Source of the DNA: a virus
DNA length: 20,610 bases
Virus record (IMG/VR): IMGVR_UViG_3300044825_003330
Span: 1-20,610 of that record
Strand: one strand, 5' to 3'
Part shown: piece after piece, positions 4,168 through 20,610 of the stretch
Layout: the number at the start of each line of letters is the position of its first letter
How positions within the stretch are numbered: the stretch's first letter is position 1
The notes under the pieces: generated by a model
Databases searched by the model: none
What the model was told of the DNA's origin: nothing
The model's input: the letters and a program-made list of their open reading frames with translations, nothing else
Translations under genes and position numbers: made by a program

Positions 4168-4368
4168 TCATCTTGTCGCATTATATAGCATCACCAAAAT
4201 AAACCCAATGGGAATTCCAATGAGTTTTGCGAATGTTTTGGGATATCGAATCAACCATCCAGCAAACACAACTTTCCAAAAATTCCAATAAGGCGTGGGG
4301 GGTTTTGGGCGATTTTTTCTGGCGGAAATTTTTTGTGGGGAAATTGTTCTTATAGTTGATTTTAGCAT
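4168..4368 (-). CDS. Small membrane protein, 66 aa
   Basis: A basic, Pro-rich N-terminus (ISARKNRPKPPTPYWNFWK) leads into a hydrophobic half, VVFAGWLIRYPKTF and then LIGIPIGFILVMLYN, which makes one good transmembrane helix near residues 47-62. Positive charges before the helix suggest the N-terminus stays inside. The ATG sits in the context ATCTCATG, without a Shine-Dalgarno sequence, like several genes here. Function not recognised. Confidence 0.7.
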   Translation of the reverse strand: MLKSTIRTISPQKISARKNRPKPPTPYWNFWKVVFAGWLIRYPKTFAKLIGIPIGFILVMLYNATR

Positions 4369-4383
4369 GAGATATTGTAAGCT

Positions 4384-4511
4384 TTTTTATGGTCGGCAGA
4401 TTTTTTATTATGTGAGGTTTTTGTGAATTTTTTATGGTCGGCGGATTTTTTTCTGGGAAGTGATTCTTATGATTGGTTTTGTGTGATTTTTTTATGGTCG
4501 GCGGATTTTTT
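4384..4511. repeat. Three copies of a TATGGTCGGCGGATTTT unit
   Basis: Near-identical units with the GGTCGGC core at about 4391, 4436 and 4496, each flanked by T-runs on both sides. Copies two and three are 60 nt apart and are separated by the GATTCTTATGATTGG motif, which recurs after copy three. Function unknown. Confidence 0.75.
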
Positions 4512-4635
4512 GATTCTTATGATTGGAATATTATGATGGGGTGTACCTAATTTTGTAGCCTTATGGTACCTGTTTTTTATTAACCGACGCATGGCCTCAG
4601 GATACCACGGCATGGGCGGCTTGGGGACTGTCCCT

Positions 4636-4657
4636 GTGCCACTTTGTGTACTGTCAC
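4636..4657. promoter_or_regulatory. GTGCCACT palindrome, copy 1
   Basis: GTGCCACT, 6 nt, then ACTGTCAC: an imperfect inverted repeat of the family found before most genes of the accessory region. See the finding on the palindrome family. Confidence 0.5.
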
Positions 4658-4695
4658 TTTATACCTTTATACGCTTTTAATACTGTAAAGAATAC

Positions 4696-4724
4696 GGGTG
4701 CACAGTTGTTTATACTGTGCACCC
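4696..4724 (-). terminator. 10-bp perfect hairpin after the 107-aa gene
   Basis: GGGTGCACAG, a 9-nt loop, CTGTGCACCC, lying 12 nt after the stop of the gene at 4737-5060. The stem is perfect but no run of T follows, so it may be a weak terminator or an mRNA 3'-end stabiliser. Confidence 0.5.
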
Positions 4725-4736
4725 ATAAGATCCTAA

Positions 4737-5060
4737 CTACCAGTTGATCTTAACCCAGCCATCTTGCCTACACCAGTAGACACTAACCCCCACACCATTT
4801 ACATCCCAGGTATACCAAACTACCTCTAAATCGTCCCATTGTTGTTGTAGATCAAACCCCACTTCTACAGGTCCAATGCGATACATTCCACGCCATTCTT
4901 GCCAAGACTGAATGAAGCTAACTGCGCGAGCGGTTAGAGTAAACAATTCCTTCACGATTGCGACTGCAAAGCATACGATAATCTCACACATTTCGATATA
5001 AATTTTCACCAGATCTGCACTGTTGGGAGTGTAAACAATGGTGCCGCGATTGCTGATCAT
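4737..5060 (-). CDS. Hypothetical protein, 107 aa
   Basis: Not recognised. The N-terminal half contains a long amphipathic to hydrophobic segment (LVKIYIEMCEIIVCFAVAIV, about residues 17-36) that could be a membrane helix. The C-terminal half is Trp-rich and beta-like (VEVGFDLQQQWDDLEVVWYT and VSVYWCRQDGWVKINW). The ATG lies in the context GATTCTCATG, shared with other genes of the accessory region and lacking a Shine-Dalgarno sequence. The hairpin at 4696-4724 follows its stop. Confidence 0.68.
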   Translation of the reverse strand: MISNRGTIVYTPNSADLVKIYIEMCEIIVCFAVAIVKELFTLTARAVSFIQSWQEWRGMYRIGPVEVGFDLQQQWDDLEVVWYTWDVNGVGVSVYWCRQDGWVKINW

Positions 5061-5125
5061 GAGAATCTAAAGCGATGGGATTGTGGGGGCAGTTTAATGT
5101 CATACCCCAGGACAGTTAGCTATAA

Positions 5126-5803
5126 TCAGAGGCCGAACTTTTCACGGCAGATAGGACCGATTCCTGCCGCAATCGAGTCAGGGTTTGTGAGATCACGACC
5201 GCAGCAGCTGCAGCTTCCGGTTTCCTTACCGTAGCGGATTGCAGCGGTGAGAGGATCACTGGCAGCCTCTAAAAGCACCGCTTTAACCTCATCGGCAAGA
5301 CGCGAATCTAAACGGTTAGGTGTAACCTTCCCAAGGTATTTGGGCTGTGGGCCATAATTACCCTCCTCAGTTTCAGTCTGAGAAGTAACCCATAGAGTTG
5401 TAAGATCACGGTTTGGCTTAACATTCACACCACTTAAACGCAGTGTGAGTCGCTTCAATCCGCGAGACTTTGCAGCCTGAAATACACTGAAGAGCCTATT
5501 AAACTGCGGCTCGCTGTTAGCATCCTCTGCAGATTCTGCCTGCAGCAGATCACAGCTCAGCTTGTGAGCCCAGGCCATTTGAGCTGGTGACAGGCCGCGA
5601 TCGTGAGACTGCTGCCACAGGGAAGCGGCAAAGCGCCCGGAGCAATACTGCAGCAGGTCTTGCGCGGCATCATCGCTCAGGCGGCTGGTGAAGCTCACAG
5701 CCTCCCCACGCGCGGTCACAGTGAGGGTTTGAGGGTCGCCCAGGGCGGCATGACGCGAGGCGCGTGCGATTGCGGCGGAACGGTCGGCGGTGGCGGTTTG
5801 CAT
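5126..5803 (-). CDS. DUF6011-type zinc-motif protein, 225 aa
   Basis: The last 30 residues, SCSCCGRDLTNPDSIAAGIG followed by PICREKFGL, match the DUF6011 pattern CxxCxRxLxxPxSxxxGxGPxC, a probable small zinc site seen in phage and actinobacterial proteins of unknown role. The first 170 residues are Ala/Arg-rich with an apparent beta-sandwich-like middle (LKRLTLRLSGVNVKPNRD) that I cannot assign. Base composition is clearly richer in G+C than the late genes, with many GCC/GCG codons, suggesting a different origin or recent gain from a GC-rich source. Upstream lies structured RNA element G, which here points the same way as the gene and so could form part of its leader. Confidence 0.8.
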   Translation of the reverse strand: MQTATADRSAAIARASRHAALGDPQTLTVTARGEAVSFTSRLSDDAAQDLLQYCSGRFAASLWQQSHDRGLSPAQMAWAHKLSCDLLQAESAEDANSEPQFNRLFSVFQAAKSRGLKRLTLRLSGVNVKPNRDLTTLWVTSQTETEEGNYGPQPKYLGKVTPNRLDSRLADEVKAVLLEAASDPLTAAIRYGKETGSCSCCGRDLTNPDSIAAGIGPICREKFGL

Positions 5804-5900
5804 GGCTCGATTGCATTGGCTCCGCCAATCTAGAACCTAGGAAGGCGACACCGTGCCTCAGATCACGAAACCGTCACAATCCGTCACACTTTTATTTCAT

Positions 5901-5969
5901 GGCAGGGTTAGCGTGGCTCACTTTCGTCGCTGGGCTTCGGACCCTCTGCCGGTTTCACCTATCCTACCA
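5901..5969 (-). ncRNA. Promoter-linked structured RNA element, copy G (opposite orientation to A-F)
   Basis: Read on the minus strand: TGG-TAGGAT (extended -10), 16 nt, hairpin GGGT-CCGAA-GCCC, then the conserved tail with GAGCCACGCTAACCCTGCC. The wobble U-G pair in the stem would be a C-A mismatch on the other strand, so this strand is the likely RNA. Unlike copies A-F it reads toward the following gene (5803). It lacks the ATG found in the tail of other copies. Confidence 0.65.
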
Positions 5970-5975
5970 TGCCAA

Positions 5976-5996
5976 GGGCGGCATCGGTGGCCGCCC
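5976..5996 (-). terminator. GC-rich hairpin after the 53-aa gene
   Basis: GGGCGGC-7 nt-GCCGCCC, a perfect 7-bp stem 16 nt after the stop at 6013. No long T-tract follows, so it is a possible rather than a certain terminator. Confidence 0.5.
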
Positions 5997-6012
5997 TGAC
6001 ATAAAACTTTAA

Positions 6013-6174
6013 CTATTCTTTTTCTGCGAAAGTTTCGACTTTTGCATCATAAGATCCCAAAGAATTGTAGAATTCGATCATTCTTTTAGCCTCTGAAATT
6101 GACTTGAATTCTTGATGCTTTCTCTCGCCATTAAAGCGAGGGTAAGGTGCAAAGAAAGAGATGCGGATTGTCAT
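6013..6174 (-). CDS. Small hypothetical protein, 53 aa
   Basis: MTIRISFFAPYPRFNGERKH at the start, then KSISEAKRMIEFYNSLGSYD, ending in an acidic tail. The layout (short beta, then one helix, then a charged end) suggests a tiny alpha/beta fold. The ATG is in the context GGTTCTCATG with GAGG 6 nt upstream, and it lies 7 nt after the stop of the 66-aa gene, so the two are probably an operon. Function not recognised. Confidence 0.72.
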   Translation of the reverse strand: MTIRISFFAPYPRFNGERKHQEFKSISEAKRMIEFYNSLGSYDAKVETFAEKE

Positions 6175-6788: not shown

Positions 6789-6848
6789 TGGAGGGATTGC
6801 GATTGCTCCGCCATCCTACAACTCAGATCCACAGCCGCCATAGCCAAC

Positions 6849-6872
6849 TTGTGCCAGTGATCAAACCGGCTG
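6849..6872. promoter_or_regulatory. GTGCCAGT palindrome, copy 2
   Basis: CTTGTGCCAGT, 8 nt, then CCGGCT. On the minus strand it reads ACTGGCACAAG, the well-conserved half of the family, 63 nt before the 6788 start. Confidence 0.5.
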
Positions 6873-6908
6873 AATTTGCCGGATCGGCTCGCGGATCGGC
6901 TGCCGGTC

Positions 6909-6980
6909 TGCTAGACTAAGATCACAAACGAGGCGAGGCTAAGAAGGCCGATGACGAACAGTAAGCCACGCTCACCCTGC
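6909..6980 (+). ncRNA. Promoter-linked structured RNA element, copy A
   Basis: TGC-TAGACT (extended -10), 19 nt, hairpin GGCT-AAGAA-GGCC, then GATGACGAACAGTAAGCC and CACGCTCACCCTGC. The stem differs from the GAGC/GCTC of other copies by paired changes, with a U-G wobble only on this strand. The transcript would run into the GGATC hairpin at 7011-7028. It points against the neighbouring genes. Confidence 0.65.
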
Positions 6981-7010
6981 GAAAAAATAGTTAAGTATAA
7001 AGAATAAAAA

Positions 7011-7337: not shown

Positions 7338-7411
7338 TGGTAGACTATGGTCACAAGAGAAGACGAGGCCACGAAGGCCGATGACGATAAGTAAGCCACG
7401 CTAACCCTGCC
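7338..7411 (+). ncRNA. Promoter-linked structured RNA element, copy B
   Basis: TGG-TAGACT, 20 nt, hairpin GGCC-ACGAA-GGCC, then GATGACGATAAGTAAGCC and ACGCTAACCCTGCC. Both arms of the stem differ from the GAGC/GCTC copies while still pairing, which is covariation. Followed by an A-rich tract with repeated ACGAAAA. Confidence 0.68.
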
Positions 7412-7485
7412 ATAAAATACTCAAGAAAAAAACGAAAAACGAAAAGAAAAAAACGATTTTTTAATTTTTATTTCAAATTGTAGGG

Positions 7486-8905: not shown

Positions 8906-8980
8906 TGCTAGACTATTAGCAACAAGAGAAGAAGAGAGCCCGAAGCTCGATGACGATAAGTAAGCCACGCTAACCCTGCC
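8906..8980 (+). ncRNA. Promoter-linked structured RNA element, copy C
   Basis: TGC-TAGACT, 21 nt, hairpin GAGC-CCGAA-GCTC, then GATGACGATAAGTAAGCC and ACGCTAACCCTGCC. A plus-strand RNA from here would end at the GGATC hairpin 9008-9027, giving roughly 105 nt. It points toward the 3' end of the gene at 9056-9223. Confidence 0.68.
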
Positions 8981-9007
8981 ATGAAATAGTTAAGTATAAA
9001 GAATAAA

Positions 9008-9335: not shown

Positions 9336-9408
9336 TGGTAGACTGTATTCAACAACCAAGGGAGAGCAAGAAGCTCAATGACGATCAGTAAGCCACAGTC
9401 ACCCTGCC
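9336..9408 (+). ncRNA. Promoter-linked structured RNA element, copy D
   Basis: TGG-TAGACT, 19 nt, hairpin GAGC-AAGAA-GCTC, then AATGACGATCAGTAAGCC and ACAGTCACCCTGCC. The tail has two changes from consensus. An A-rich tract with ACGAAAA repeats follows. Confidence 0.66.
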
Positions 9409-9467
9409 AAAAAATACGAAAAACGAAATTAAAACGAAAAAAAACGAAAAAAATATAAAAATCTTGT

Positions 9468-10472: not shown

Positions 10473-10540
10473 TATAGTTGTATCAACAACAGGGGGAGAG
10501 CAAGAAGCTCGATGACGAACAGTAAGCCACGCTAACCCTG
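10473..10540 (+). ncRNA. Promoter-linked structured RNA element, copy E
   Basis: TATAGT -10 box (no TGn extension), 19 nt, hairpin GAGC-AAGAA-GCTC, then GATGACGAACAGTAAGCC and ACGCTAACCCTG. The GGATC hairpin at 10571-10588 follows. Confidence 0.66.
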
Positions 10541-10570
10541 TCACAAAATAATAAAGTATAAACAATAAAA

Positions 10571-11097: not shown

Positions 11098-11171
11098 TGC
11101 TATTCTTATGTCATAAGAGAAGAGACAGAGCCCGAAGCTCGATGACGAACAGTAAGCCACGCTAACCCTGC
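11098..11171 (+). ncRNA. Promoter-linked structured RNA element, copy F
   Basis: TGC-TATTCT, 21 nt, hairpin GAGC-CCGAA-GCTC, then GATGACGAACAGTAAGCC and ACGCTAACCCTGC. No GGATC hairpin follows; instead the region leads to the consensus promoter at 11372. Confidence 0.66.
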
Positions 11172-11371
11172 TCTGAAATAATTGTTACAATGTGCGACTC
11201 ATAAGCAATACTCATAAAACTCGAATTACTCATAAGAATCTGATATATTTGATGTTCTTATGATTGGGGGTGGGCGTGATTGGATTTTGTGATATTTGGG
11301 ATTCTTATGAGTCGGTGTGGGTCTTATGAGTCTTATGGGGGTGTGTCAGTAATTTTTCCGTCCGCGCCCCC

Positions 11372-11400
11372 TTGACAAAAACGCGAGCGCGTGCTATAAT
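11372..11400 (+). promoter_or_regulatory. Full-consensus sigma-70 promoter with extended -10
   Basis: TTGACA (11372-11377), exactly 17 nt, TGC-TATAAT (TATAAT 11395-11400). All twelve hexamer bases match the consensus. It reads rightward into the tandem repeats and has no plus-strand gene downstream, so its product is likely non-coding or it serves replication. Confidence 0.9.
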
Positions 11401-11418
11401 GCGACGGCCTAAACCGCA

Positions 11419-11660
11419 AGGCATAAGACGGTTAAAATTAACATAAGAACCTAAAAATATCATAAGAATTCACAAGAAACTAGAGGCATAAGACGGTTAA
11501 AATTAACATAAGAACCCAAAAATATCATAAGAATTCACAAGAAACTAGAGGCATAAGACGGTTAAAATTAACATAAGAACCCAAAAATATCATAAGAATT
11601 CACAAGAAACTAGAGGCATAAGACGGTTAAAATATCATAAGAATTCATAAGAATAAGACA
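11419..11660. repeat. 65-bp tandem repeats, three full copies and a partial one
   Basis: Units start at 11419, 11484 and 11549, each beginning AGGCATAAGACGGTTAAAAT and ending CACAAGAAACTAG; they differ by a single C/T. A fourth, partial unit begins at 11614 and lacks the middle part. Each unit holds three CATAAGA or similar words. The copies are contiguous with no unique spacers. Confidence 0.95.
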
Positions 11661-11824: not shown

Positions 11825-12178
11825 TTATCCTGGATACTTAATCATCGTATCAGAGATAGATTGATCCTTATTTTTACTGAATCCATGTTTATTATAAAAA
11901 CGATCTAATGCTTTCTTTTTACCTTGATCTGGTTCTGGTGTTAATGTTACTGGTAAGTTATTTCTTCTTGCAACATTTGATATACCTTTCATAACTCTTG
12001 ATCCAATTCCTTGTCCTTGCTTCTCTTTAGGAATACGGATATTATTCACTCTAATTGTATTAGATCTTGGAGAATGAGAAAACGATAATTTTACATCTGG
12101 ATGTTTTCTTTTATAATTTTTTTCAATTGTTGTGAGAGCCTGTGATACATCCTCCAGAAATTGTGAATATGATTTCAT
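11825..12178 (-). CDS. GNAT-like acetyltransferase with capsid-targeting-like N-terminus, 117 aa
   Basis: The centre and end fit a small GNAT fold: NTIRVNNIRIPKEKQGQGIG carries strand beta-4 and the acetyl-CoA loop motif Q-G-x-G-I/x-G, followed by a helix (SRVMKGISNVARRNNLPVTL) and the terminal ALDRFYNKHGFSK, the usual FYxxxGF motif. Acetyl-CoA transfer to an amine is thus likely; the substrate is unknown. The N-terminus MKSYSQFLEDVSQ resembles MKTFxxFLE of the cluster at 16380-17348 and the T4 internal protein capsid-targeting peptide, so this enzyme may be packaged. The ATG lies in CTTCTTATG, 7 nt after the Toprim gene's stop. Confidence 0.82.
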   Translation of the reverse strand: MKSYSQFLEDVSQALTTIEKNYKRKHPDVKLSFSHSPRSNTIRVNNIRIPKEKQGQGIGSRVMKGISNVARRNNLPVTLTPEPDQGKKKALDRFYNKHGFSKNKDQSISDTMIKYPG

Positions 12179-12185
12179 AAGAAGT

Positions 12186-12716
12186 TTAGAGTTTTATATA
12201 CTTACTTATGAGATATTCAATGTAGCTATCTGATGCATCAGAAAGATCTGTTTCTGGAACTTCTGTATAGTGACCGAATTTTGCTAACTTTCTTCCTGCT
12301 TTATCATTATCACAGACTGCTATAATTGGACGATTGAGCATAAGAAGAAAGTTCATATAATCTCTTGGTGGATCATTTGCCATGGTTGCTAATGCAGAGA
12401 AATTAAGACTTGTCATTCGAGCTGCATCGAATATACCTTCCGTAAGAAAGATTGGTTTGTGTGGTGAGTATAAGCTTTCTATTCCAAATAAGGTTACTGT
12501 AGGATATGACTTGTTTCTGTAGGTGTAGTATTTCGACTGTTCCTTTGTATTGAAGATTGTTTTTGAACCATGTGGTCTGTATTGCTGATAACCTGCTAGT
12601 TTTCCGGTTAGAGTGTATAAAAGAAAAGTGGCGGTGTTTGTTTCTTCATCAATGATCGTTGGATGTAGATCTGTGTTAAGATGCCTTTGTTTGAGATGGG
12701 ATCTGATGTTCATCAT
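12186..12716 (-). CDS. Toprim-domain protein, primase-like, 176 aa
   Basis: The second half is a Toprim domain: HKPIFLTEGIFDAARMTSLN (catalytic Glu in TEG, then FDAxxxxxxxFxALATMA), and RPIIAVCDNDKAGRKLAKFG, the DxD motif with AG. The C-terminal ETDLSDASDSYIEYLI is like the end of phage Toprim proteins that act as primase-like or nicking partners. The N-terminal part contains a beta-rich region with KLAGYQQYRPHGSKT and no zinc ribbon, so a full primase is not seen. I use the ATG at 12716, which overlaps the upstream stop as TGATG; a TTG at 12722 is also in frame. Confidence 0.85.
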   Translation of the reverse strand: MMNIRSHLKQRHLNTDLHPTIIDEETNTATFLLYTLTGKLAGYQQYRPHGSKTIFNTKEQSKYYTYRNKSYPTVTLFGIESLYSPHKPIFLTEGIFDAARMTSLNFSALATMANDPPRDYMNFLLMLNRPIIAVCDNDKAGRKLAKFGHYTEVPETDLSDASDSYIEYLISKYIKL

Positions 12717-12997
12717 CACCAATGCATACCTTCTTCATAATTATAATATCTCATCAGATACATACGACACATGAGTTCTGTTACATTTGGATTTTGTGTT
12801 ACATCATAAACAACAGAAAAACAATTATCTTCTAATAACAAAGAGAATAAGACTTTTTCTGGGGTATTTGGATTCATTGCAACTGCACAACGAATCCCAT
12901 CATTTTTATCCTTTGCCAATTCAGATAAAATTTCTGCTGATGTGTTTGGATTCTTTGCAATATTAATTTTTTCTTCGACAGTAAGAAATTCATCCAT
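12716..12997 (-). CDS. LRV-type repeat protein, 93 aa (third of three paralogs)
   Basis: Two to three copies of an about 24-residue repeat: KNPNTSAEILSELAKDKNDG, then IRCAVAMNPNTPEKVLFSLL and a divergent third copy. The pattern (N/D)PNTxxExLxxLAxDxxxxVRxxVA matches the leucine-rich repeat variant (LRV) family, alpha solenoids that bind proteins or nucleic acids. Start at ATG 12997 by the TGATG overlap; the TTG at 13000 is not needed. Ends LMRYYNYEEGMHW. Target unknown. Confidence 0.83.
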   Translation of the reverse strand: MDEFLTVEEKINIAKNPNTSAEILSELAKDKNDGIRCAVAMNPNTPEKVLFSLLLEDNCFSVVYDVTQNPNVTELMCRMYLMRYYNYEEGMHW

Positions 12998-13311
12998 CAA
13001 TCATTCATCAGATGTAAACGACGAGCAAGTTCTGGGGCGTTTTTGTTGTTTGCTGCTCCACAACGAACATCCCACTTTTCATCAGAAATCAATTTAATCA
13101 ATGTCTCTGGTGGCGTATTTGGATTCCATGAGACTTTCATCCGAACATAATCATCAATATCAGATGCAAGTAATTTTAGAGTTTCTGATGATGTATTCTC
13201 ATGTCTTGCAACACGATCACGAATATAAGAATTCTCATGAGTCGCCAGAACTGCTAGAGTTTCTGATGATGTATCTGGATTCCTCGCAAGATTAAAAGGA
13301 GTTTCAGTCAT
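12997..13311 (-). CDS. LRV-type repeat protein, 104 aa (second paralog)
   Basis: Four repeats of the same unit: ARNPDTSSETLAVLATHENS, RHENTSSETLKLLASDIDDY, WNPNTPPETLIKLISDEKWD and a last partial NNKNAPELARRLHLMND. The consensus is the same as in the neighbours on both sides, and the C-terminal (A/C)RRLxLM is shared by all three. Eight-base overlap with the upstream gene (ATGACTGA) and TGATG with the downstream one. Confidence 0.87.
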   Translation of the reverse strand: MTETPFNLARNPDTSSETLAVLATHENSYIRDRVARHENTSSETLKLLASDIDDYVRMKVSWNPNTPPETLIKLISDEKWDVRCGAANNKNAPELARRLHLMND

Positions 13312-13642
13312 TTTTCATTAATAATAAACGACGCATAATTTCGGTTGTGTTTGGATTTTGTGCCGCAAATCTACGAACAAAATCATCATTATCCTCAAAG
13401 AACTGCTCTAACAATTCCTTTGGGATATTTCCATTTCTTGCAACATGACAACGAACATAAGAATCCTTATCCTCCGCAAGAACTTTTAGAGTTTCCTGTG
13501 ATGTGTTTGGATGATCCGCAACAGCACCACGAATCAAAATACTTTTGTCAGTTGCAAGAACTACTAGAGTTTCTGATGGTGTACTTGGATCTTGGATGAT
13601 TTTGAGTTTTTCATCATAAGAAAGTTCAAGAATGTTGTTCAT
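13304..13642 (-). CDS. LRV-type repeat protein, 112 aa (first paralog)
   Basis: Repeats IIQDPSTPSETLVVLATDKS, ADHPNTSQETLKVLAEDKDS, ARNGNIPKELLEQFFEDNDD and AQNPNTTEIMRRLLLMKND. A typical LRV solenoid fragment; full proteins of this type in bacteria have more repeats, so these three genes may work as a stacked or mixed complex. The order and overlaps point to tandem duplication within one operon. Confidence 0.87.
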   Translation of the reverse strand: MNNILELSYDEKLKIIQDPSTPSETLVVLATDKSILIRGAVADHPNTSQETLKVLAEDKDSYVRCHVARNGNIPKELLEQFFEDNDDFVRRFAAQNPNTTEIMRRLLLMKND

Positions 13643-14469
13643 TGTACTGCCTTCAGAATCAAATCATGTACAAGATTTTGTTGTTCAACATTCACAGATC
13701 CATTACACTGTGTCACAATCTGTTTGATGTTAAATTTCTTATCGGTTTCTACCGTATAAAATGATTGTTCATTCTTTTCGATGAAGAAGATCCAGATACT
13801 ATCACCAATGCGTTCTTCATAAGAAGCAACACAGTTCTTCACTTTCCTACCCCAGAACACAAGATCCAAACTTTCCTTTGGTTGCCAAATAGTGTATCCG
13901 TCGATTGTCTTTGGTTCAATCAGAGTTTCAATGGGGACATTATTTGTGGTGTGTTCCAGATACAGTTCCGAAATATGATCATGAAACTCCACCATTCTCC
14001 ATCGTTTTGGCGCAGGAACTTCTACGGACTTTTCCAGAAGTTTATTCAGTTGATCAAATGTATCTCCTGCATATTCATTGATTTCAATACATCCAATCTT
14101 TTGATAATGATGATCAAGCATATGCAGAAAACTTTCTACTTTTGTATGAGAACGAATCCAATCAATTGTATTGTCACTCAATGAAAATTTTATAATTTCA
14201 AGAAGTTCAATATGATTCCGAATAATATCAAACGAAACATACGGCCAGATTGATTGAATGATTTCTGTATTCTCGATAACATTATTCTTTTCAAATTCAA
14301 TCAGTTTTTCTGGATAGCCAGAAATGATTTTATTACCATAATGCTTTTTGATACTTGGTTTCTCAAGAATTTGATCTGGAAGCATAACTGGAATGTTTGT
14401 TGCCGTGTGTATTCTAGCAGATACTGATGAGTTTAGTGTGATGTGGTGGACAGTTTGCTTATTGTCCAT
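13639..14469 (-). CDS. PcfJ-like protein, 276 aa
   Basis: The C-terminal 90 residues hold the PcfJ-like signature: LDLVFWGRKVKNCVASYEER (Gr.l.NCVasY..R), then GDSIWIFFIEKNEQSFYTVE (G.S.I.f....FyTvE) and a final IKQIVTQCNGSVNVEQQNLV (I.Qi....N). PcfJ proteins occur on plasmids and in phages and are of unknown biochemical function. The N-terminal 180 residues are mainly helical and not recognised. Start at ATG 14469 (TGATG overlap with the deaminase gene) rather than the TTG at 14472. Confidence 0.82.
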   Translation of the reverse strand: MDNKQTVHHITLNSSVSARIHTATNIPVMLPDQILEKPSIKKHYGNKIISGYPEKLIEFEKNNVIENTEIIQSIWPYVSFDIIRNHIELLEIIKFSLSDNTIDWIRSHTKVESFLHMLDHHYQKIGCIEINEYAGDTFDQLNKLLEKSVEVPAPKRWRMVEFHDHISELYLEHTTNNVPIETLIEPKTIDGYTIWQPKESLDLVFWGRKVKNCVASYEERIGDSIWIFFIEKNEQSFYTVETDKKFNIKQIVTQCNGSVNVEQQNLVHDLILKAVQ

Positions 14470-14903
14470 CAAATTTTCATAAAGTTAAAATCCTGTTCGC
14501 TTGTGCTCCAATGAATTTCCTTAATCGTCGGACAGTTTTTTGTGATGTACAAATAGCAAATTGGGCAGCAAAAACTATCTCTCAGTTCTGTTCCACCATG
14601 ACCACCAATTCTACAAATTACAATCTTATGTCCTGGATGCCTTGACTTTAAAATACAATTAAGTTCCGCATGAAGATATTGCTTCTGCTTTAGACTTGGT
14701 TGCTTGTACTTATTTGCTGCCATAACCGCAGCATAAAATTGTTGAGTATGTGTAATCTCGTAGGAATTCGTCCCACTTGCAATCACACGATTTCGTTTAT
14801 CAAGTAAAATAGCCCCCATTTTTTTGGGAGCATCGGATGCCATAGCAACGGCAATGGCCTGTTGTAGAATATGCTTTTTGAGTGGCGATCGAGTGGACAT
14901 CAT
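14469..14903 (-). CDS. Cytidine/deoxycytidylate deaminase-family protein, 144 aa
   Basis: The zinc motif of the CDA superfamily is present: HAELNCIL (His and catalytic Glu) and CCPICYLYI (CxxC) near residues 78 and 113. Upstream is the usual substrate region with KMGAILLDKRNRVIASGTNS. The family deaminates cytidine, dCMP or related bases; T4-like phages encode a dCMP deaminase (gene cd), but this protein is shorter, and lacks the PC of the usual PCxxC (it has CCPIC), so I do not assign substrate. Overlaps both neighbours (ATGA, TGATG). M1 at 14903 and M2 at 14900 are both possible. Confidence 0.87.
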   Translation of the reverse strand: MMSTRSPLKKHILQQAIAVAMASDAPKKMGAILLDKRNRVIASGTNSYEITHTQQFYAAVMAANKYKQPSLKQKQYLHAELNCILKSRHPGHKIVICRIGGHGGTELRDSFCCPICYLYITKNCPTIKEIHWSTSEQDFNFMKI

Positions 14904-15358
14904 TTGACTTGTTGGGGCTGAGATTCTTGATTGAATTCTTGATGAAGAGATTGTCCTTGAGTGAATCCAATGCCACCAAAGATCAGTGCCAGTGCAATCA
15001 CAAATGCTGCCCGTTTATGACCATGATCATCTTCTCGTTGCGTATATTCTTCGAGTGATTGACCCGCTGCAATTTCACCAAATTTAGTTCCTACTGCACC
15101 ACCCAATACCATCAGAATCCATGGCGTAAACATTGCAAATAAAAGAAAAAATCCGATCAAACCAATCGCAGCCCATGAGACTTCTGGTGAATAAGATGGC
15201 GAATTTGATGACGAAACTTGTCTTAAATTATGAATAAAAATTGGACGATACAATCGCTCAATTTCTTGTTTTGCAACATATGATGCACCAGCCTCAACTG
15301 TCACAGTATAAACTGATCCAGTTGGTGTGGTTTTAATATCCGCTTGAAAGGTTGCCAT
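14900..15358 (-). CDS. Membrane protein with two transmembrane helices, 152 aa
   Basis: A beta-like N-terminal 60 residues (TTPTGSVYTVTVEAGASYVA) lead into helix one (about residues 62-88, WAAIGLIGFFLLFAMFTPWI) with a glycine-rich turn, a charged loop with EYTQREDDHGHKR, then helix two (AAFVIALALIFGGIGF) and a Gln-rich tail. No family recognised. In an operon with the deaminase gene (ATGA overlap) and the 53-aa gene, which overlaps its start by 26 nt. Confidence 0.78.
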   Translation of the reverse strand: MATFQADIKTTPTGSVYTVTVEAGASYVAKQEIERLYRPIFIHNLRQVSSSNSPSYSPEVSWAAIGLIGFFLLFAMFTPWILMVLGGAVGTKFGEIAAGQSLEEYTQREDDHGHKRAAFVIALALIFGGIGFTQGQSLHQEFNQESQPQQVK

Positions 15359-15494
15359 CGTTCAGGAAATCAATTTGATTTTGATAATACTCAATATCAT
15401 CATTGATTGAATCAATGATATTCTGTTGTGTTTGTTTGTCTCTTTCTTGAATCAGATTCTTAATATGATTCAGTAGTTGTTGTCTATCAGTCAT
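15333..15494 (-). CDS. Small helical protein, 53 aa, overlapping the next gene
   Basis: MTDRQQLLNHIKNLIQERDK, then QTQQNIIDSINDDIEYYQNQ and a short end. A likely two-helix coiled coil. It overlaps the 51-aa gene upstream as ATGA, and runs 26 nt into the membrane-protein gene. The overlap is longer than usual here, but the helical composition and the start overlap favour a real gene. Confidence 0.65.
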   Translation of the reverse strand: MTDRQQLLNHIKNLIQERDKQTQQNIIDSINDDIEYYQNQIDFLNDGNLSSGY

Positions 15495-15646
15495 GTCTCA
15501 AAATTGTTTACAATAAAATCTTCGAGTTCATCAAATTTTGAGTCACTCATGTTCAAGACATATTCTTGAATAATCGTTTCCAACAAATCTCGATCTTTGG
15601 ATACAAGTTCTTCCAGCAGATCAATCATCTCGGTTCGTGTGGTCAT
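15491..15646 (-). CDS. Small acidic helical protein, 51 aa
   Basis: MTTRTEMIDLLEELVSKDRD, then LLETIIQEYVLNMSDSKFDE and an acidic end. The layout LLEELVxxDRxLLExxIxEYVxxMSDxxFxELxxF resembles short cyanophage proteins I recall from similar operons, function unknown. It starts the long overlapping operon that runs down to 11825 and has no gene within 80 nt upstream. Confidence 0.75.
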   Translation of the reverse strand: MTTRTEMIDLLEELVSKDRDLLETIIQEYVLNMSDSKFDELEDFIVNNFET

Positions 15647-15679
15647 GAGATTGTGGGGCTGTTGACATTCCTAGTATAA

Positions 15680-15703
15680 AGCCCCCAGATTGCTCTGAGG
15701 GCT
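15680..15703 (-). terminator. Terminator of the 208-aa gene
   Basis: AGCCCTCAG-AGCAAT-CTGGGGGCT on the minus strand followed by TTTATACT, 24 nt after the stop at 15728. It separates the cargo-like cluster from the operon beginning at 15646. Confidence 0.7.
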
Positions 15704-15727
15704 GAGAGTGGACAGTTTTTGAGGTGT

Positions 15728-16354
15728 CTAGTTATAGGGACCACCAATGTTCCTCATAGTTCCAAAAGCACTTTTAGCACCTTTTTTTTGTTTAACTCCT
15801 CTAGTAGAACTTCTTTCTGCTCTACGATTTGAAGTTTGTTGTCCTGCAGGTTCTCCAGGAAGAGCATATTCTTTATTTCTTTTTCTAATTTTTTGAAGAG
15901 GTGTTAAATCCTGATCTACCTTTGCCTCATCAAGAATGTCATCAATCCATTCTTCACTCATATTTGCCATAATTGTGATGGCATTCTCTTCAGTATCAGC
16001 ATAACCTTCATCGAGAAGATAATCAAGAACTACATCATAAAGATCTACTTCTTCATTTGATTGTCTTAATATATTTGCTGCTAATCTTTTTCTTTTTGCT
16101 GCTGCTTTTTTTGGGTCTGTTCTTTTTAATTCTTGTTCTGCATCTTTATGTGGAGTGGTTACTACAGGTCTAGATCCAGAAGAAGATGTACTTGGTTTAC
16201 GATCAGATGGATTACGATATGCTCTACCCTCATCATCTACTGCTTCTGCCATACCATGATCGCCATGTCTTTGATGATCGACTGCTGCCTCTGCTCTTGA
16301 TTTGATGTCACTATCTTCATAAACAGATAGATAAGCCTCGATTAAATCGTCCAT
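15728..16354 (-). CDS. LIEAYLSVY/LLDEGY-domain protein, 208 aa, possible packaged protein
   Basis: Starts MDDLIEAYLSVYEDSDIKSR, a motif shared with the plus-strand gene at 17986 (MQDLIEAYLSVYDDINEV). The middle is basic and low-complexity. Near residues 103-138 lies EVDLYDVVLDYLLDEGYADT, ENAITIMANMSEEWIDDILD, a domain that recurs in two other genes here. The rest is Lys/Arg-rich. I recall this domain from many T4-like cyanophage proteins of unknown role. An AATAAATA late promoter-like box lies 22 nt before the ATG (16377-16384), so it is likely made late with the head proteins. Terminator at 15680-15703. Confidence 0.82.
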   Translation of the reverse strand: MDDLIEAYLSVYEDSDIKSRAEAAVDHQRHGDHGMAEAVDDEGRAYRNPSDRKPSTSSSGSRPVVTTPHKDAEQELKRTDPKKAAAKRKRLAANILRQSNEEVDLYDVVLDYLLDEGYADTEENAITIMANMSEEWIDDILDEAKVDQDLTPLQKIRKRNKEYALPGEPAGQQTSNRRAERSSTRGVKQKKGAKSAFGTMRNIGGPYN

Positions 16355-16376
16355 AAGAATTTGATAGATTTTAGAT

Positions 16377-16384
16377 TATTTATT
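16377..16384 (-). promoter_or_regulatory. Late promoter-like box AATAAATA
   Basis: AATAAATA on the minus strand, 22 nt before the 16354 ATG. It overlaps the last codons and stop of the 87-aa gene. Confidence 0.55.
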
Positions 16385-16643
16385 TCTTAAACTGTTTTGC
16401 ACCATGGCGTTCAATTTCTTTTGTCTGAATTCTTCTTTCTGGTGAATTTGGTTCCGTTGGAACTGGTCTTGGACTATTACTCAAATTGTAAGTTTTTGTT
16501 CCATCTGAATCTATTTGCAAATCTTTTGGTTCGTTAACGACAATTCCTTTTGTCAGTTCTTTTTGTTGTTTTTTGCTGAATTTGGGCTCTTTGTCTTTTT
16601 TCTTTTCTTCGAGAAACTGTAAAAATTGTTGAAATGTTTTCAT
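16380..16643 (-). CDS. Short basic protein with capsid-targeting-like N-terminus, 87 aa
   Basis: Starts MKTFQQFLQFLEEKKKDKEP; the MKTFxxFL part and the LEE before a Lys run match the layout of T4 internal head protein leader peptides (I recall MKTYQEFIAEA), where the prohead protease cuts after a Glu. The rest is unstructured in look, rich in Lys, Glu, Pro and Ser, with KQQKELTKGIVV and ERRIQTKEIERHGA. The upstream stop overlaps its ATG (ATGA). Role unknown; packaging is inference. Confidence 0.8.
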   Translation of the reverse strand: MKTFQQFLQFLEEKKKDKEPKFSKKQQKELTKGIVVNEPKDLQIDSDGTKTYNLSNSPRPVPTEPNSPERRIQTKEIERHGAKQFKK

Positions 16644-17154
16644 GATCTTTTTGGTTGAGTTTTTGTTCTTTTTGGTTTACCTTGTGCTCTGAATGTTGGT
16701 TGTGTTGTTATTCCTCGATTAAAAGTGTCTGGATTCACTACAAGATAATCAGATTCAGTTCCTTTTGGTTTTTTATTTGAAGCATTTCTAGTTCTTTCCA
16801 TATGACTCGCAGCATTTTTAATTCTCACAGAGTTCCTAGGATTGCCATAGACAGCCTCTCTTCCCTTTTGAATTCCCTCACTATCACTATGCTCTGGTGT
16901 ACGAATAGTTTTAATTCTTTTTGTTGGAATTCTTGATTTCGTGACTCCCGCCGCATCACCAGAGTCTCCAGCATAATATCTAGCTACATTTTTATCGCTA
17001 CTTGCATATACACCTGGACCATAAACACCATACTCGGAAGATCGAGCATTTTTGTTTTTTGTATCCCTTTGGCAACTTCTTTGGAATCTCCACGATACAC
17101 ATTCAAAAATCTGATTCTTTTTGCTTCCTCAAGAAATTCTCCAAATGTCTTCAT
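16640..17154 (-). pseudogene. ADP-ribosyltransferase-like protein, split by a -1 frameshift at A6-C-A5
   Basis: The start is ATG 17154 with a capsid-targeting-like N-terminus MKTFGEFLEEAKR. The first frame continues with FLNVYRGDSKEVAKGIQ and then reaches a stop near 16983. From the run A6-C-A5 at 17060-17049 the coding signal continues in the -1 frame: NARSSEYGVYGPGVYASSDK, NVARYYAGD, and on to HMERTRNASNKKPKGTESDY and the stop at 16640. YRG, the YGPGVYASSD block and ARYYA look like the ADP-ribosyltransferase/PARP-like core (R or H, then GxYxxGxYxs...A..Ya). The second frame has no start codon for about 290 nt, so it depends on the first. This may be a sequencing indel, a broken gene or a shift site. 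Confidence 0.72.
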
Positions 17155-17348
17155 GATCTGCGATCTTCGATGTCTTTAATATCATGCTGTTGTTCTTTAT
17201 CGTAAGAACTTGCACTTTTCATTGTACTTTTTACAATGTTTGAATGTCTTCTTCTTTTTGACATATCTAACTGTCTTGCAGTAGTTTGCTGTTGTGATGT
17301 TTGAGGCGCATGGCCAACTTGTTCTAGAAACTGTGAAAATGTTTTCAT
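17151..17348 (-). CDS. Short basic protein with capsid-targeting-like N-terminus, 65 aa
   Basis: Starts MKTFSQFLEQVGHAPQ, then Gln/Thr-rich sequence and a basic stretch MSKRRRHSNIVKSTMKSASS, ending with charged residues (KDIEDRRS). Unstructured in look. ATGA overlap with the upstream 192-aa gene and with the downstream ART-like gene, so the three are read together. Packaging is inference from the N-terminus. Confidence 0.8.
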   Translation of the reverse strand: MKTFSQFLEQVGHAPQTSQQQTTARQLDMSKRRRHSNIVKSTMKSASSYDKEQQHDIKDIEDRRS

Positions 17349-17923
17349 GGCTCTTCTCCAAGATCTCTCAATCTTTGTTTGACATCTTCAATTTTCTTCC
17401 TTCCTTTTGCCTCACGACTTACAGAAGTGCGAATGAGTGCATCAGAAGCATTTTGTACTAATTGATGCTTTTTCTTGACATTTTTGATGAGTTCTGCTGC
17501 TTGCTTTTGAATTCCAGGACGATGCTTAGCAAATGGCTTATTTCTCAATTCTTTGACTCTTGCTGCACCTACTTGTATATCTCTTGCAAGTTCGCCTACT
17601 CTACCTTTGACTCTTTCTTCTTTTTCTGGTGTAAGATCCTTATATTCCTCGTCCAATTCGATAACTTCTAAAATTTCTTCGATGGGGACGCGAGCCATGA
17701 TGTCCAACACATCCTGCTCATCAAGATTCTCGGAAATTAGAAAATCATACACAAAGTCGAAAATATCAATTTCTTCTGTTTGGGATTGCTTCAATGCTTT
17801 CTCAGTTGGAGCACCTTCAGATCCAGGTCTCCTCATTCTTTCACCGGATCCAGCCTTGATTCTTCGTCTTTTCGCATGAATATTATCCCACAATCCTTGC
17901 TCTTCATTAATCGGGAAAGTCAT
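17345..17923 (-). CDS. LWDNIHAKRRRIKAGSG-motif protein with LLDEGY-type domain, 192 aa
   Basis: Residues 10-35 carry LWDNIHAKRRRIKAGSG and then ERMRRPGSEGAPT, a motif that I recall from the ends of many unrelated phage proteins, of unknown role. About residues 48-95 hold EIDIFDFVYDFLISENLDEQ and DVLDIMARVPIEEILEVI, a divergent copy of the LLDEGY-type domain. The second half is helical and basic (VGELARDIQVGAARVKELRN and beyond). First gene of the minus-strand cluster, with a late-promoter-like box 20 nt upstream. The ATG lies in AATCTTATG. Confidence 0.82.
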   Translation of the reverse strand: MTFPINEEQGLWDNIHAKRRRIKAGSGERMRRPGSEGAPTEKALKQSQTEEIDIFDFVYDFLISENLDEQDVLDIMARVPIEEILEVIELDEEYKDLTPEKEERVKGRVGELARDIQVGAARVKELRNKPFAKHRPGIQKQAAELIKNVKKKHQLVQNASDALIRTSVSREAKGRKKIEDVKQRLRDLGEEP

Positions 17924-17942
17924 AAGATTTTAGTGTTTTATA

Positions 17943-17950
17943 TATTTATT
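17943..17950 (-). promoter_or_regulatory. Late promoter-like box (minus strand side of divergent pair)
   Basis: AATAAATA on the minus strand, 20 nt before the 17923 ATG. Confidence 0.55.
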
Positions 17951-17952
17951 TT

Positions 17953-17960
17953 GATAAATA
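17953..17960 (+). promoter_or_regulatory. Late promoter-like box (plus strand side of divergent pair)
   Basis: GATAAATA on the plus strand, 26 nt before the 17986 ATG and separated by 2 nt from the minus-strand box, so the two promoters are back to back. Confidence 0.5.
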
Positions 17961-17985
17961 TTTTTATTGTGCAATTAAAAATCTC

Positions 17986-18717
17986 ATGCAAGATCTTATA
18001 GAAGCTTATCTTTCTGTTTATGATGACATCAATGAAGTGAAAGGATTTGGCGGTAGAGTTGATCCTAAAACTGGTAAGTACACTGGTGAAGTATCAAGCC
18101 CAAGCCAAAAAGTATTCCAGCAATTCAGTACTGATGCTGCAGTATTTGGTAGAAAAGCTGGATCAAATGCAAGATCTAGATCCATCACTCATGGTGAACC
18201 AAAAGAATCTGGTGTGGTTCGCTCTAAAAGAGCAGGTGTAGATGTGACCAAACAAGATCCTGGTCTTGCGATGACGCCTGCTGATAGAATGAAAGCCAGA
18301 GCAAATGCACTAGAAAAAAGAGGACAAGGAAAGAGAGCAAATAAAATTCGTGCTGTCATGAATCGCCCAAATATGGAAGAATCTTATGTGGAAATTGATG
18401 AGAAGCGTTTAGTTCCTGGAACTCCCGATCGTGCGCATCGTTTCCCACTTACCGACGAAGAGAGAGAAATTGTAGAAAGAATAAGAAAAGAAAGAGAAAA
18501 GAAGGACAAGAAAACTTCTGCTAGTTCCACCACCAAATCTGCAAGTAGAAAGCCAACTACAAAACTAAGTGACATTCAAGTTCGTGAATCTTATGATTTT
18601 TATGATCTCGTCCTAGATCATCTTTTAGATGAAGGTTATTGCGAATCTGAAGAGAATGCAATCTCCATGATGGCTGCAATGTCTGAGGAATGGATTGATT
18701 CTATTATTAACGGCTGA
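17986..18717 (+). CDS. LIEAYLSVY/LLDEGY-domain protein, 243 aa, possible packaged protein
   Basis: The only clear plus-strand gene. It begins MQDLIEAYLSVYDDINEVKG and ends with the domain SYDFYDLVLDHLLDEGYCES, EENAISMMAAMSEEWIDSII. Between them is about 180 residues of basic, Gly/Ser/Thr-rich sequence including ALEKRGQGKRANKIRAVMNR and a charged helix REIVERIRKEREKKDKKTSA. The layout is that of the 208-aa protein with the order of long linker and domain changed. It shares a divergent promoter region with the 17923 gene and ends at a strong bidirectional terminator. The role is unknown; the prohead or internal head location is inference. Confidence 0.85.
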   Translation: MQDLIEAYLSVYDDINEVKGFGGRVDPKTGKYTGEVSSPSQKVFQQFSTDAAVFGRKAGSNARSRSITHGEPKESGVVRSKRAGVDVTKQDPGLAMTPADRMKARANALEKRGQGKRANKIRAVMNRPNMEESYVEIDEKRLVPGTPDRAHRFPLTDEEREIVERIRKEREKKDKKTSASSTTKSASRKPTTKLSDIQVRESYDFYDLVLDHLLDEGYCESEENAISMMAAMSEEWIDSIING

Positions 18718-18741
18718 AGTCATAAATAAAACTAAAAACAA

Positions 18742-18767
18742 AAAAAGGAGCCGCGAGGCTCCTTTTT
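18742..18767. terminator. Strong bidirectional terminator between convergent genes
   Basis: AAAAAGGAGCC-GCGA-GGCTCCTTTTT: an 11-bp stem with a GNRA-type loop, T-tract on both strands. It ends the plus-strand gene at 18717 and the minus-strand gene at 18788. Confidence 0.93.
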
Positions 18768-18787
18768 AATGCTTATGTGAACTCAGT

Positions 18788-19420
18788 TCACATCTTAAGA
18801 CCGGCAGAGATCATTGTGTTGATCATGCTAGAAGCAAGTTCACCACAGTCAGGGCAGGCCATGGCATATTTCACGATTGAACGATCGCCAGAGCTAGCGG
18901 AGCGATCTTCATACTCTTTGACATTCAGACGATAAGCAGCACAAACAGCTTTCATCAGTTCGCGCAGAGCAGGAACATCCTTGTAGAGTTCATAAACAGA
19001 ACGCATATGACCAAAGTCATTGATGCGACGGCAGAAGTTCAGGCGACCCATAATGTGATTGACTTCCTCATCAGTGAAATAATCTGCGAGGATAATCTCA
19101 AATGCCACATTGACACGCTCAACATCTTTGATGCGAAGCTGATACTCATTGGTCATACGATCAATGCGTACATCAGTTACATCAGTGATCAGTGCAACAA
19201 GATCACAATCCAGTGAATCGTTTGATTCTTCTTCTTGGGCTTCTTCAGTTTGTTGGGCAGTTTGCTGTGCAATTTGATCTGCAATCAGCAAAAGTGCTTG
19301 CTGGGACTCTTCGATCTGGGACTGAATGTTGCTGAGCAGTTCTTGAGTAGTAGCCACGGTTGAGAAAATAATGAAGAAAATGGACGGTTTGGAGACTTTT
19401 AGGGCAACTACCATTCCCAT
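18788..19420 (-). CDS. Paralog of the 8313-8783 protein, 210 aa
   Basis: From about residue 105 on it aligns with the 156-aa protein: DYFTDEEVNHIMGRLNFCRR, INDFGHMRSVYELYKDVPAL, then SIVKYAMACPDCGELASSMI. The CPxCG pair is kept. Residues 22-55 form a coiled coil (ATTQELLSNIQSQIEESQQA...). Start is uncertain: ATG 19420 (GATTCTTATG context, 5 nt after the upstream stop) gives a 21-residue hydrophobic lead, while GTG 19357 gives an N-terminus more like the paralog. I use the ATG. Together with the 62-aa gene it forms a small operon ending in the 18742 terminator. Confidence 0.8.
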   Translation of the reverse strand: MGMVVALKVSKPSIFFIIFSTVATTQELLSNIQSQIEESQQALLLIADQIAQQTAQQTEEAQEEESNDSLDCDLVALITDVTDVRIDRMTNEYQLRIKDVERVNVAFEIILADYFTDEEVNHIMGRLNFCRRINDFGHMRSVYELYKDVPALRELMKAVCAAYRLNVKEYEDRSASSGDRSIVKYAMACPDCGELASSMINTMISAGLKM

Positions 19421-19425
19421 AAGAA

Positions 19426-19614
19426 TCAGAGAGACACGATCCAGTTAAGATCTGAATTGAGGTCTACCCAGAAAAAGTATTTTCTGTTCTTAGAGGCAAG
19501 AAAGACTTTACCATCTTTCTGCTGCTCGACAAAACAGGTTACATTCCGATCCATAAGATTTGCAAGGCGATTCTTGGCTTTGCTCGATTTGGGAGTGACG
19601 ATGGCGGTTTGCAT
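19426..19614 (-). CDS. Small conserved hypothetical protein, 62 aa
   Basis: MQTAIVTPKSSKAKNRLANL, then MDRNVTCFVEQQKDGKVFLA and SKNRKYFFWVDLNSDLNWIV. The pattern KAxNRLAN...VEQxxxGxVFLxSxNxxYxFWVxLxxDxNW matches a short family that I recall from cyanophages and marine cyanobacteria; no role known. Its TAA stop lies in CTTAACTGG, a piece of the palindrome family. A palindrome copy lies 60 nt upstream. Confidence 0.78.
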   Translation of the reverse strand: MQTAIVTPKSSKAKNRLANLMDRNVTCFVEQQKDGKVFLASKNRKYFFWVDLNSDLNWIVSL

Positions 19615-19670
19615 TGGCCTGTTGTCGATGAACTTAGTATAACCGGTGGAGCTGGACTGCGGTCTGGGTC

Positions 19671-19692
19671 TTGTGCCAGTTACCTATCTGTC
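19671..19692. promoter_or_regulatory. GTGCCAGT palindrome, copy 10
   Basis: TTGTGCCAGT, 7 nt, CTGTCC, 59 nt before the 19614 start. It lies outside the accessory region of 4369-11824, so the family is not limited to it. Confidence 0.5.
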
Positions 19693-19694
19693 CC

Positions 19695-19928
19695 TCATTG
19701 TTGTTTGACAAGTAATTCTTGACTCTTAATTTTACAAAGTTCAGTCAGTTTTTCGCCAGAAAGAAGCACATCCAGTTGACTATAATTAGTTCCACATTGT
19801 GTGTTCAGTTGTTTTTGAACTACACCTGCAGAGTTCCATTGAGTGAATGGGGCCGAGACAAGAATGCCAGCAATAAAAAGAATCATCAGTGCAAGAAATG
19901 CATTTGCTAGTTTTTCTGTTGTGTCCAT
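19695..19928 (-). CDS. Small membrane protein, 77 aa
   Basis: The first 30 residues, MDTTEKLANAFLALMILFIA then GILVSAPFT, form one transmembrane helix with a short acidic start, so the N-terminus is probably outside or inserted as a reverse anchor. The soluble part has two Cys (NTQCGTNYSQLDVLLSGEKL, ELCKIKS) that could form a disulfide bond. Ribosome binding site GGAG lies 8 nt before the ATG. Function not recognised. Confidence 0.75.
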   Translation of the reverse strand: MDTTEKLANAFLALMILFIAGILVSAPFTQWNSAGVVQKQLNTQCGTNYSQLDVLLSGEKLTELCKIKSQELLVKQQ

Positions 19929-19950
19929 AATAAATCTCCGTAATTAATTT

Positions 19951-20418
19951 TTACCAAGAGGCACGGTACTCAAATTCCCAATTTTCTGGGGCACTTTCTA
20001 GGATTTTATTAAGAATGGGGACAGTTCGCTCAAGATCCGCAAAATACCATTCATCATACTCAGTGCCACCAAAAAAGAATCCAGATTGCGATGGTAGCAG
20101 TTCTTCTGCTTTAGAATGATCTTCCAGGATAGATTCGCACTTCTCTATGAGATCCTTCAGATTATCACGATCAACATAAATGACTTGACACTCATCTGTA
20201 CCTCCACCACAAACATCTACAAAAAATTTGTGAATTTGATTTGCCTTACGCCAATGTGCAAGTTGAAGCTTAACTTCAGCAAATTGCAAATCATCATATA
20301 GAAAATCATTACCACCCATAAGATTGGCAATTTCTTTAACAGTTTTACATTCTTCCTCACTTTCCCAAGACGCAGAAGCAACAAACTTCTTTGCGTACAA
20401 ATAAGAATCGAGTCCCAT
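19951..20418 (-). CDS. Conserved phage protein MGLDSYLYAKK type, 155 aa
   Basis: I start the gene at ATG 20418 (MGLDSYLYAKKFVASASWES), because the opening G-L-D-x-Y-L-Y-A-K-K is the known N-terminus of a widespread phage family; the open frame reaches 20574 but shows no similar sequence there. Later signatures are LQLAHWRKANQIHKFFVDVC, GGTDECQVIYVDRDNLKDLI, and ELLPSQSGFFFGGTEYDEWY, all as in the family. No activity is known to me. Downstream neighbour is a membrane protein on the same strand, 22 nt away. Confidence 0.85.
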   Translation of the reverse strand: MGLDSYLYAKKFVASASWESEEECKTVKEIANLMGGNDFLYDDLQFAEVKLQLAHWRKANQIHKFFVDVCGGGTDECQVIYVDRDNLKDLIEKCESILEDHSKAEELLPSQSGFFFGGTEYDEWYFADLERTVPILNKILESAPENWEFEYRASW

Positions 20419-20459
20419 GATGTTGAAGTTGTTTGTACTTGAGTAGTCTAGTAGGTGAT

Positions 20460-20479
20460 GGGGAGCTTTGCTGCTCCCC
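20460..20479 (-). terminator. 7-bp hairpin between genes
   Basis: GGGGAGC-6 nt-GCTCCCC, perfect stem, 10 nt after the stop at 20490. No T-tract follows, so its terminator role is uncertain. Confidence 0.5.
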
Positions 20480-20489
20480 TTGTACCAGT

Positions 20490-20610
20490 TCAGAGATCGA
20501 ACACCTTGAAGCAACGATCCTCTTCTTTGTTCATAATGTTCCAAACATCGGTAGAATTGTTCTTGTCCCACCAAGACATAGAATCAGCAAGAATTTGGCG
20601 AACAGAAAGG
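20490..20610 (-). CDS. Hypothetical protein, C-terminal part (start beyond right edge)
   Basis: The minus strand is open from the window edge to TGA at 20492-20490, giving LSVRQILADSMSWWDKNNST, then DVWNIMNKEEDRCFKVFDL. Too short to assign. An internal ATG at about 20580 could be a start, but the upstream residues VRQILADSM read like coding sequence. Its stop lies in CTGAACTGGTACAAG, which resembles the palindrome family. Confidence 0.6.
   Translation of the reverse strand, partial: LSVRQILADSMSWWDKNNSTDVWNIMNKEEDRCFKVFDL

Follow-up and report, generated by a model that had tools for sequence, protein, structure and literature searches.

On the minus strand of the window, the whole stretch of 20,610 bases that was analysed and that makes up an entire IMG/VR virus record, lies a gene divided between two reading frames. 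It is likely a phage gene, inactivated not long ago in this copy, for a small ADP-ribosyltransferase (ART) that is packaged in the head. The frame break itself is present in the contig. As a lesion it is ordinary, a dispensable phage gene out of frame, and it led to a family of small ARTs, found on at least 43 contigs of uncultivated phages, whose members bear a putative packaging tag like that of T4. The family is probably, by analogy with T4, one of head-packaged and injected mini-ARTs; it would add to a kind of phage enzyme that is already known, the packaging tag, as read from the sequences, being the new information. Intact members are candidates for virion proteomics and for searches for host targets beyond T4, and a recently broken copy would fit the view of injected proteins as accessory.

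We take the window to be a fragment of a T4-like phage, as it encodes a gp25-like baseplate wedge protein according to Pfam and PHROGs. Compared with cultured phages, the part from 14400 to 20610 gives short, distant DNA matches only, and all five records matched are Synechococcus phages; the host was probably a cyanobacterium.

The split gene and its intact relatives

The gene starts with an ATG at 17154-17152 and its frame 0 ends with a TAG at 16986-16984, the last 22 or so codons lying past the shift and off-frame. The second frame is open from 17128 down to a TGA at 16642-16640 and encodes the remaining ART domain and a C-terminal RTKTQPK tail. Sequence comparison shows one gene in two halves, the open reading frame (ORF) at 17154-16984 and the adjoining frame as far as 16640; the switch between them falls at A6-C-A5 (17060-17049) or just past it. 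The preliminary description had placed the run, the TAG and the codons across the run correctly, and its count of about 290 nt of second frame lacking a start codon also holds, the first ATG, GTG or TTG being a GTG at 16828, after about 300 nt. None of 2000 mononucleotide shuffles of 17128-16640 left the 162 codons of this frame open; as a control this is weak, since the segment was picked for its openness.

That one gene is spread over two frames, as had been proposed, is borne out by a profile HMM of 20 relatives built with the window left out, with which 22,910 stop-to-stop segments were searched: positions 1-34 of the profile fall on the frame-0 piece (E 4e-8), positions 30-145 on the piece in the second frame (E 1.2e-11). 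In tblastn with the relatives, frame 0 stops at 17062-17053 (17008 with L114) and the other frame resumes at 17041-17002. The 3' part shares 35% identity over 143 columns with the L119 protein (E 1e-18 for the pair), and we accept the earlier proposition that both parts would be needed for the product.

Searches with the window protein itself matched 11 stretches in viral_contigs, none of them confirmed, found nothing in tblastn against 50,697 phage records at E 1 or E 10, and gave nothing relevant in Pfam and PHROGs, where a match to CFAP77 was taken as chance, like one to an AI-designed barrel. Relatives were reached through the neighbouring gene at 15728-16354, which gave L004 and L062, and the L062, L119 and L114 proteins as queries yielded further ones; together with L004 they come from 43 distinct contigs, counted from listings. 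They comprise 30 distinct protein sequences, including a second, adjacent copy in L107, and the intact ones are about 134-187 aa long, a few being portions of longer ORFs. The L062 protein has no relative in genome_contigs, two intact members queried have no match among the 50,697 phage records, and searches of open-licence PMC full text brought up no description of the family.

A comparison with homologues, of the kind that the preliminary description had called for, finds the gene unbroken in 42 of the 43 other viral contigs, each with a single ORF covering at least 125 of the 146 profile positions; in the 43rd the family member is cut by the contig end. The window carries the only split copy among the contigs with a family member, and a pattern spanning the frame junction has no match in any other viral contig. 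Counted by source, 79 have a family match at threshold, 76 full-length (including repeat entries of the same contigs) and three partial, of which one is the window and two, L099 and L154, represent a single contig truncated by its end. In L004 an intact copy is flanked by homologues of two window genes, the upstream neighbour (17151-17348) and the one at 15728-16354. The relatives' ORFs of at least 80 aa give 31 split pairs on the window, 29 of them at the split ART gene; the other two, at about 11229-11458 and 6825-6981, come from short L004 ORFs and lie in repeat-rich stretches.

Table 1. Positions in the window of the split gene, its parts and the genes around it.
Feature	Positions	Strand	Basis or remark
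First gene of overlapping chain, 192 aa	17345..17923	-	N-terminal segment of phrog_16028 (unknown function)
Upstream neighbour, 65 aa, MKTFSQFLEQ	17151..17348	-	CTS-like start without E10
CTS-like codons 1-10, MKTFGEFLEE	17125..17154	-	T4 CTS rule (excerpt of PMC9026906)
5' part of split gene, frame-0 ORF	16984..17154	-	56 aa + TAG
A6-C-A5, site of frame change	17049..17060	-	Sequence; tblastn of relatives
3' part of split gene, -1 frame	16640..17047	-	135 aa + TGA
ATGA overlap, second-frame stop and next gene start	16640..16643	-	Sequence
Downstream neighbour, 87 aa, MKTFQQFLQFLEE	16380..16643	-	CTS-like start
208-aa gene MDDLIEAYLSVYED, downstream landmark common to L004	15728..16354	-	Sequence comparison

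The ART domain and the N-terminal sequence

The preliminary description had called the product ADP-ribosyltransferase-like, an assignment with which the relatives agree through matches to ART-PolyVal, PARP and Tpt1/KptA. In Pfam, searched with 20 relatives at a limit of E 10, these matches are weak: ART-PolyVal in six of 20 (best E 0.0061, with one listed score of 15.8 bits below the cut-off of 31.2), PARP in two (best E 0.00039) and Tpt1/KptA in two (best E 0.0085). The best solved relatives of the family profile are Tpt1/KptA (E 0.011). A model of L098 (pLDDT 79.6) aligns with Tpt1/KptA over 82 residues (model 16-111; Z 9.5, rmsd 3.0) and with other ARTs at Z 7.5 and below, and Foldseek likewise relates it to Tpt1/KptA (E 5.9e-4). 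The L119 model (pLDDT 66) is of low confidence and lends weak support only, with no match at E 0.001 or below and a best one of 1.2e-3, to ARTs; it is for the intact relative L098 only that the predicted structure has the ART fold. These lines are each moderate and mutually agreeing; we read the domain as an ART closest to the ART half of Tpt1/KptA.

The likeness to Tpt1/KptA RNA 2'-phosphotransferase, the best structural match, covers Tpt1's C-terminal ART half, whereas its N-terminal half is without counterpart in the family protein. The Alt family of T4 is absent from the listed Pfam, PHROGs and solved-structure matches of the relatives. T4 Alt is much larger than 134-187 aa, and the Alt/VIP2 clade has the motif forms S-T-S and E-x-E. 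Like T4 Alt, the family would be an ART of T4-like phages, probably packed into the head by way of cleavable N-terminal residues and injected; unlike Alt, it has His-Gly-Thr or His-Tyr-Thr/Asn in strand 1, resembles Tpt1/PARP and would belong to another ART clade. Arg in strand 1 (VYRG) is peculiar to the window, which also has ASS after strand 2 and ESD rather than E-x-E. The active site of Alt is given as Arg-Ser-Glu in an excerpt of PMC5512222. Passages from PMC9503650 and PMC5512222 describe ART domains as frequent among polyvalent proteins and other phage proteins packaged in the head, and record homologues of KptA in phages. With the ART-PolyVal and Tox-ART-HYD2 domains of polyvalent proteins the family shares the strand-1 His, a predicted delivery with DNA and an association with GNAT (in the family, in L094), but its members are mostly stand-alone and carry the CTS-like tag. 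The L094 case is a 462-aa ORF (L094:5001-6386) that joins a CTS, an ART and a GNAT-like stretch, recognised by eye, which resembles a stand-alone GNAT gene in the window (11825-12178) with a CTS-like start and D10.

What tells most about the use of the protein is its N-terminus, which the preliminary description had overlooked and which is like a capsid-targeting sequence (CTS). In T4 internal proteins, as an excerpt of PMC9026906 sets out, the CTS comprises ten residues, of which 4 and 7 serve targeting and 8 and 10 processing; the gp21 protease cleaves after L/I-X-E, and Asp at position 10 prevents processing while leaving targeting unaffected. The window gene opens with MKTFGEFLEEA, that is, with F4, F7, L8, E10 and an L-x-E cleavage motif before Ala11, and as a sequence pattern this agrees with the T4 rule (F/Y4, F7, L/I8, E10, L/I-x-E). 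All 30 distinct relatives open with a similar stretch, MK[TS][FY]xxF[ILM]xEA or nearly so, with Met at position 8 in two of the 30 and Val at position 11 in one; one copy group is without the initial Met. The pattern MK[TS][FY]..[FY][ILM] occurs four times in the window against 0.013 expected per shuffle (300 shuffles), and three other window genes, at 17348, 16643 and 12178, have similar starts. Matches to phrog_2667 'internal head protein' were obtained for 18 of 20 relatives at E up to 1 (best 0.0013), each of them weak.

The T4 internal proteins IPI-IPIII are alike in that their first ten residues follow the same pattern (F/Y4, F7, L/I/M8, E10) and in that they are encoded by tandem small genes; they differ from the family, in which a recognisable enzyme fold makes up the body. 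An excerpt of PMC12373910 describes each of T4 Ip1-3 as blocking a GmrSD restriction enzyme. A further CTS-like start accompanies the ART in nine of the 20 loci scanned, and with at least one such start in only these nine, tandem CTS genes were rejected as a universal arrangement. One of the two extra CTS-like matches of L096 is a 40-aa ORF and may be chance, and the single match listed for L104 is a second gene, its ART being missed by the pattern because it lacks the initial Met. Tandem runs are found in L101 (about 4281-6170), with four genes with CTS-like starts, and in L107 (about 4423-5820), with three CTS-like genes including the two adjacent ART paralogues; such runs are possibly cassettes of injected proteins.

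Origin of the frame break

In the intact protein the first ten residues would serve as a CTS and carry it into the core of the prohead, whose protease would then cut after L/I-x-E, and the ART domain would be injected with the DNA and modify a host macromolecule, the steps of packaging, cleavage, injection and target all being carried over from T4. In the window a net -1 change near A6-C-A5 would leave a 56-aa product in which the CTS is followed by no more of the ART domain than its first strand and helix; this short CTS peptide may still be packaged, and no ART would be made. The second frame is without accumulated stops and its own stop still overlaps the next start, which suggests that the loss of the window gene was recent. 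Through this overlap, premature termination may also reduce translation of the gene that starts at 16643.

The strand-1 His and a Gly-Phe pair are present in all 30 distinct relatives, 29 by script and L121 (HYT and SGF) by reading, as the extra N-terminal part of its ORF made the script pattern miss it; the window lacks both. In the script-scored relatives strand 1 reads HGT in 26, HYT in two and HYN in one, with Gly-Phe about a dozen residues further on. The window has Arg in place of the His, so the histidine expected of H-type ARTs is found in the family and not in the window. At the junction, the match in frame 0 runs as far as the residue ahead of Gly-Phe and that in the other frame begins a few residues past it. 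This leaves two possibilities: a deletion of a few bases that took the Gly-Phe codons with it, or a one-base loss together with substitution of Gly-Phe. Composites with 0, 1, 2, 3 and 4 unknown residues score 83.0, 82.6, 84.9, 82.2 and 81.1 bits against the profile, a preference for loss of a few bases by 1.9 bits over the next best that decides nothing; as the scores differ by less than 4 bits, the exact size of the lesion is left unfixed. In both cases translation across the junction would give a product without residues common to all 30 relatives. Some caution is called for, since the window gene, in its 3' half, shares only about 40% identity with its nearest relative; the change of His to Arg and the lack of Gly-Phe could then reflect divergence between lineages and not decay.

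Against an inactivated gene it could be held that the real phage has an unbroken gene and that the contig consensus lacks one base in A6-C-A5 through a sequencing or assembly error, which is unlikely but deserves serious weight. The junction is a double A run covered by one assembly only, as L003 ends at window position 16490, short of it, and the other genes of the overlapping chain contain no similar break. On the other side, L003 aligns with the window over 8,760 bases with two mismatches and no gap, across 65 homopolymers of at least five bases, 21 of them of at least six, and a one-base error would leave the missing His and Gly-Phe unexplained.

Far less probable is that the break is used through programmed -1 frameshifting or polymerase slippage that yields a full-length ART besides the 56-aa CTS peptide. 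The A-rich site, a -1 frame kept open and an AAAGGG upstream of the run (17070-17065), which could be a Shine-Dalgarno-like stimulator, would suit such a mechanism, but the zero frame reads CAA AAA ACA AAA ATG and the X XXY YYZ heptamer is absent from it, the preliminary description having rightly recorded the site as non-standard. Nor is the downstream RNA unusually structured (83 nt, pseudoknot-free folding, z -0.65, with 44 of 200 shuffles folding as well), and none of the 42 complete relatives is split at the site. The read-through product would still be without His and Gly-Phe, losses that lie both upstream of the shift and beside it, and a gene that works through the -1 frameshift named in the preliminary description is therefore not upheld.

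It is equally improbable that the 56-aa product is itself a functional internal peptide and the 3' half leftover DNA: the CTS and its L-x-E motif are intact in frame 0 and further short CTS genes adjoin, but the relatives, where the CTS leads into the ART domain, have nothing that corresponds to the off-frame tail beginning at residue 35. There is, finally, a very slight chance that the gene is active and a low-level -1 shift yields a small number of full-length ARTs that are packaged and whose active site is switched from His to Arg, among mostly CTS-only peptide, in which case one gene would set the dose of injected enzyme.

Neighbouring genes and repeats

The split ART gene stands in a chain in which the four-base ATGA overlap recurs at 17154, where the upstream neighbour overlaps the split gene, and at 17348. 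L004 has a 71% identical gene in the same place as the upstream neighbour, and a search with the latter found no relative although L004 holds one, so the search misses true relatives. The gene at 16380-16643 does not occur between L004's homologues of the flanking genes. The gene at 15728-16354, with 523 confirmed viral relatives and no assigned function, and that at 17986-18717 both start with MxDLIEAYLSVY and share a 'LDEGY...MSEEW' stretch.

Elsewhere in the window an element of about 57 nt occurs in six interspersed copies (6936-6992, 7366-7422, 8935-8991, 9363-9419, 10497-10553 and 11127-11183), with related copies in L003 and L004. Its stem comes in two versions, of GGCC and GAGC types, which suggest a paired hairpin; Rfam gives no match to it in the window, and some short, weak matches to jumbo phages of Pseudomonas are likely to be chance. 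A 65-bp unit is repeated in 3.5 tandem copies with 98% matches at 11419-11643, and three consecutive genes of leucine-rich-repeat-variant (LRV) repeats occupy 12716-13642. They are followed at 13639-14472 by a gene for a PcfJ-like protein (PF14284, E 1e-9), of a family best known from conjugative plasmids.
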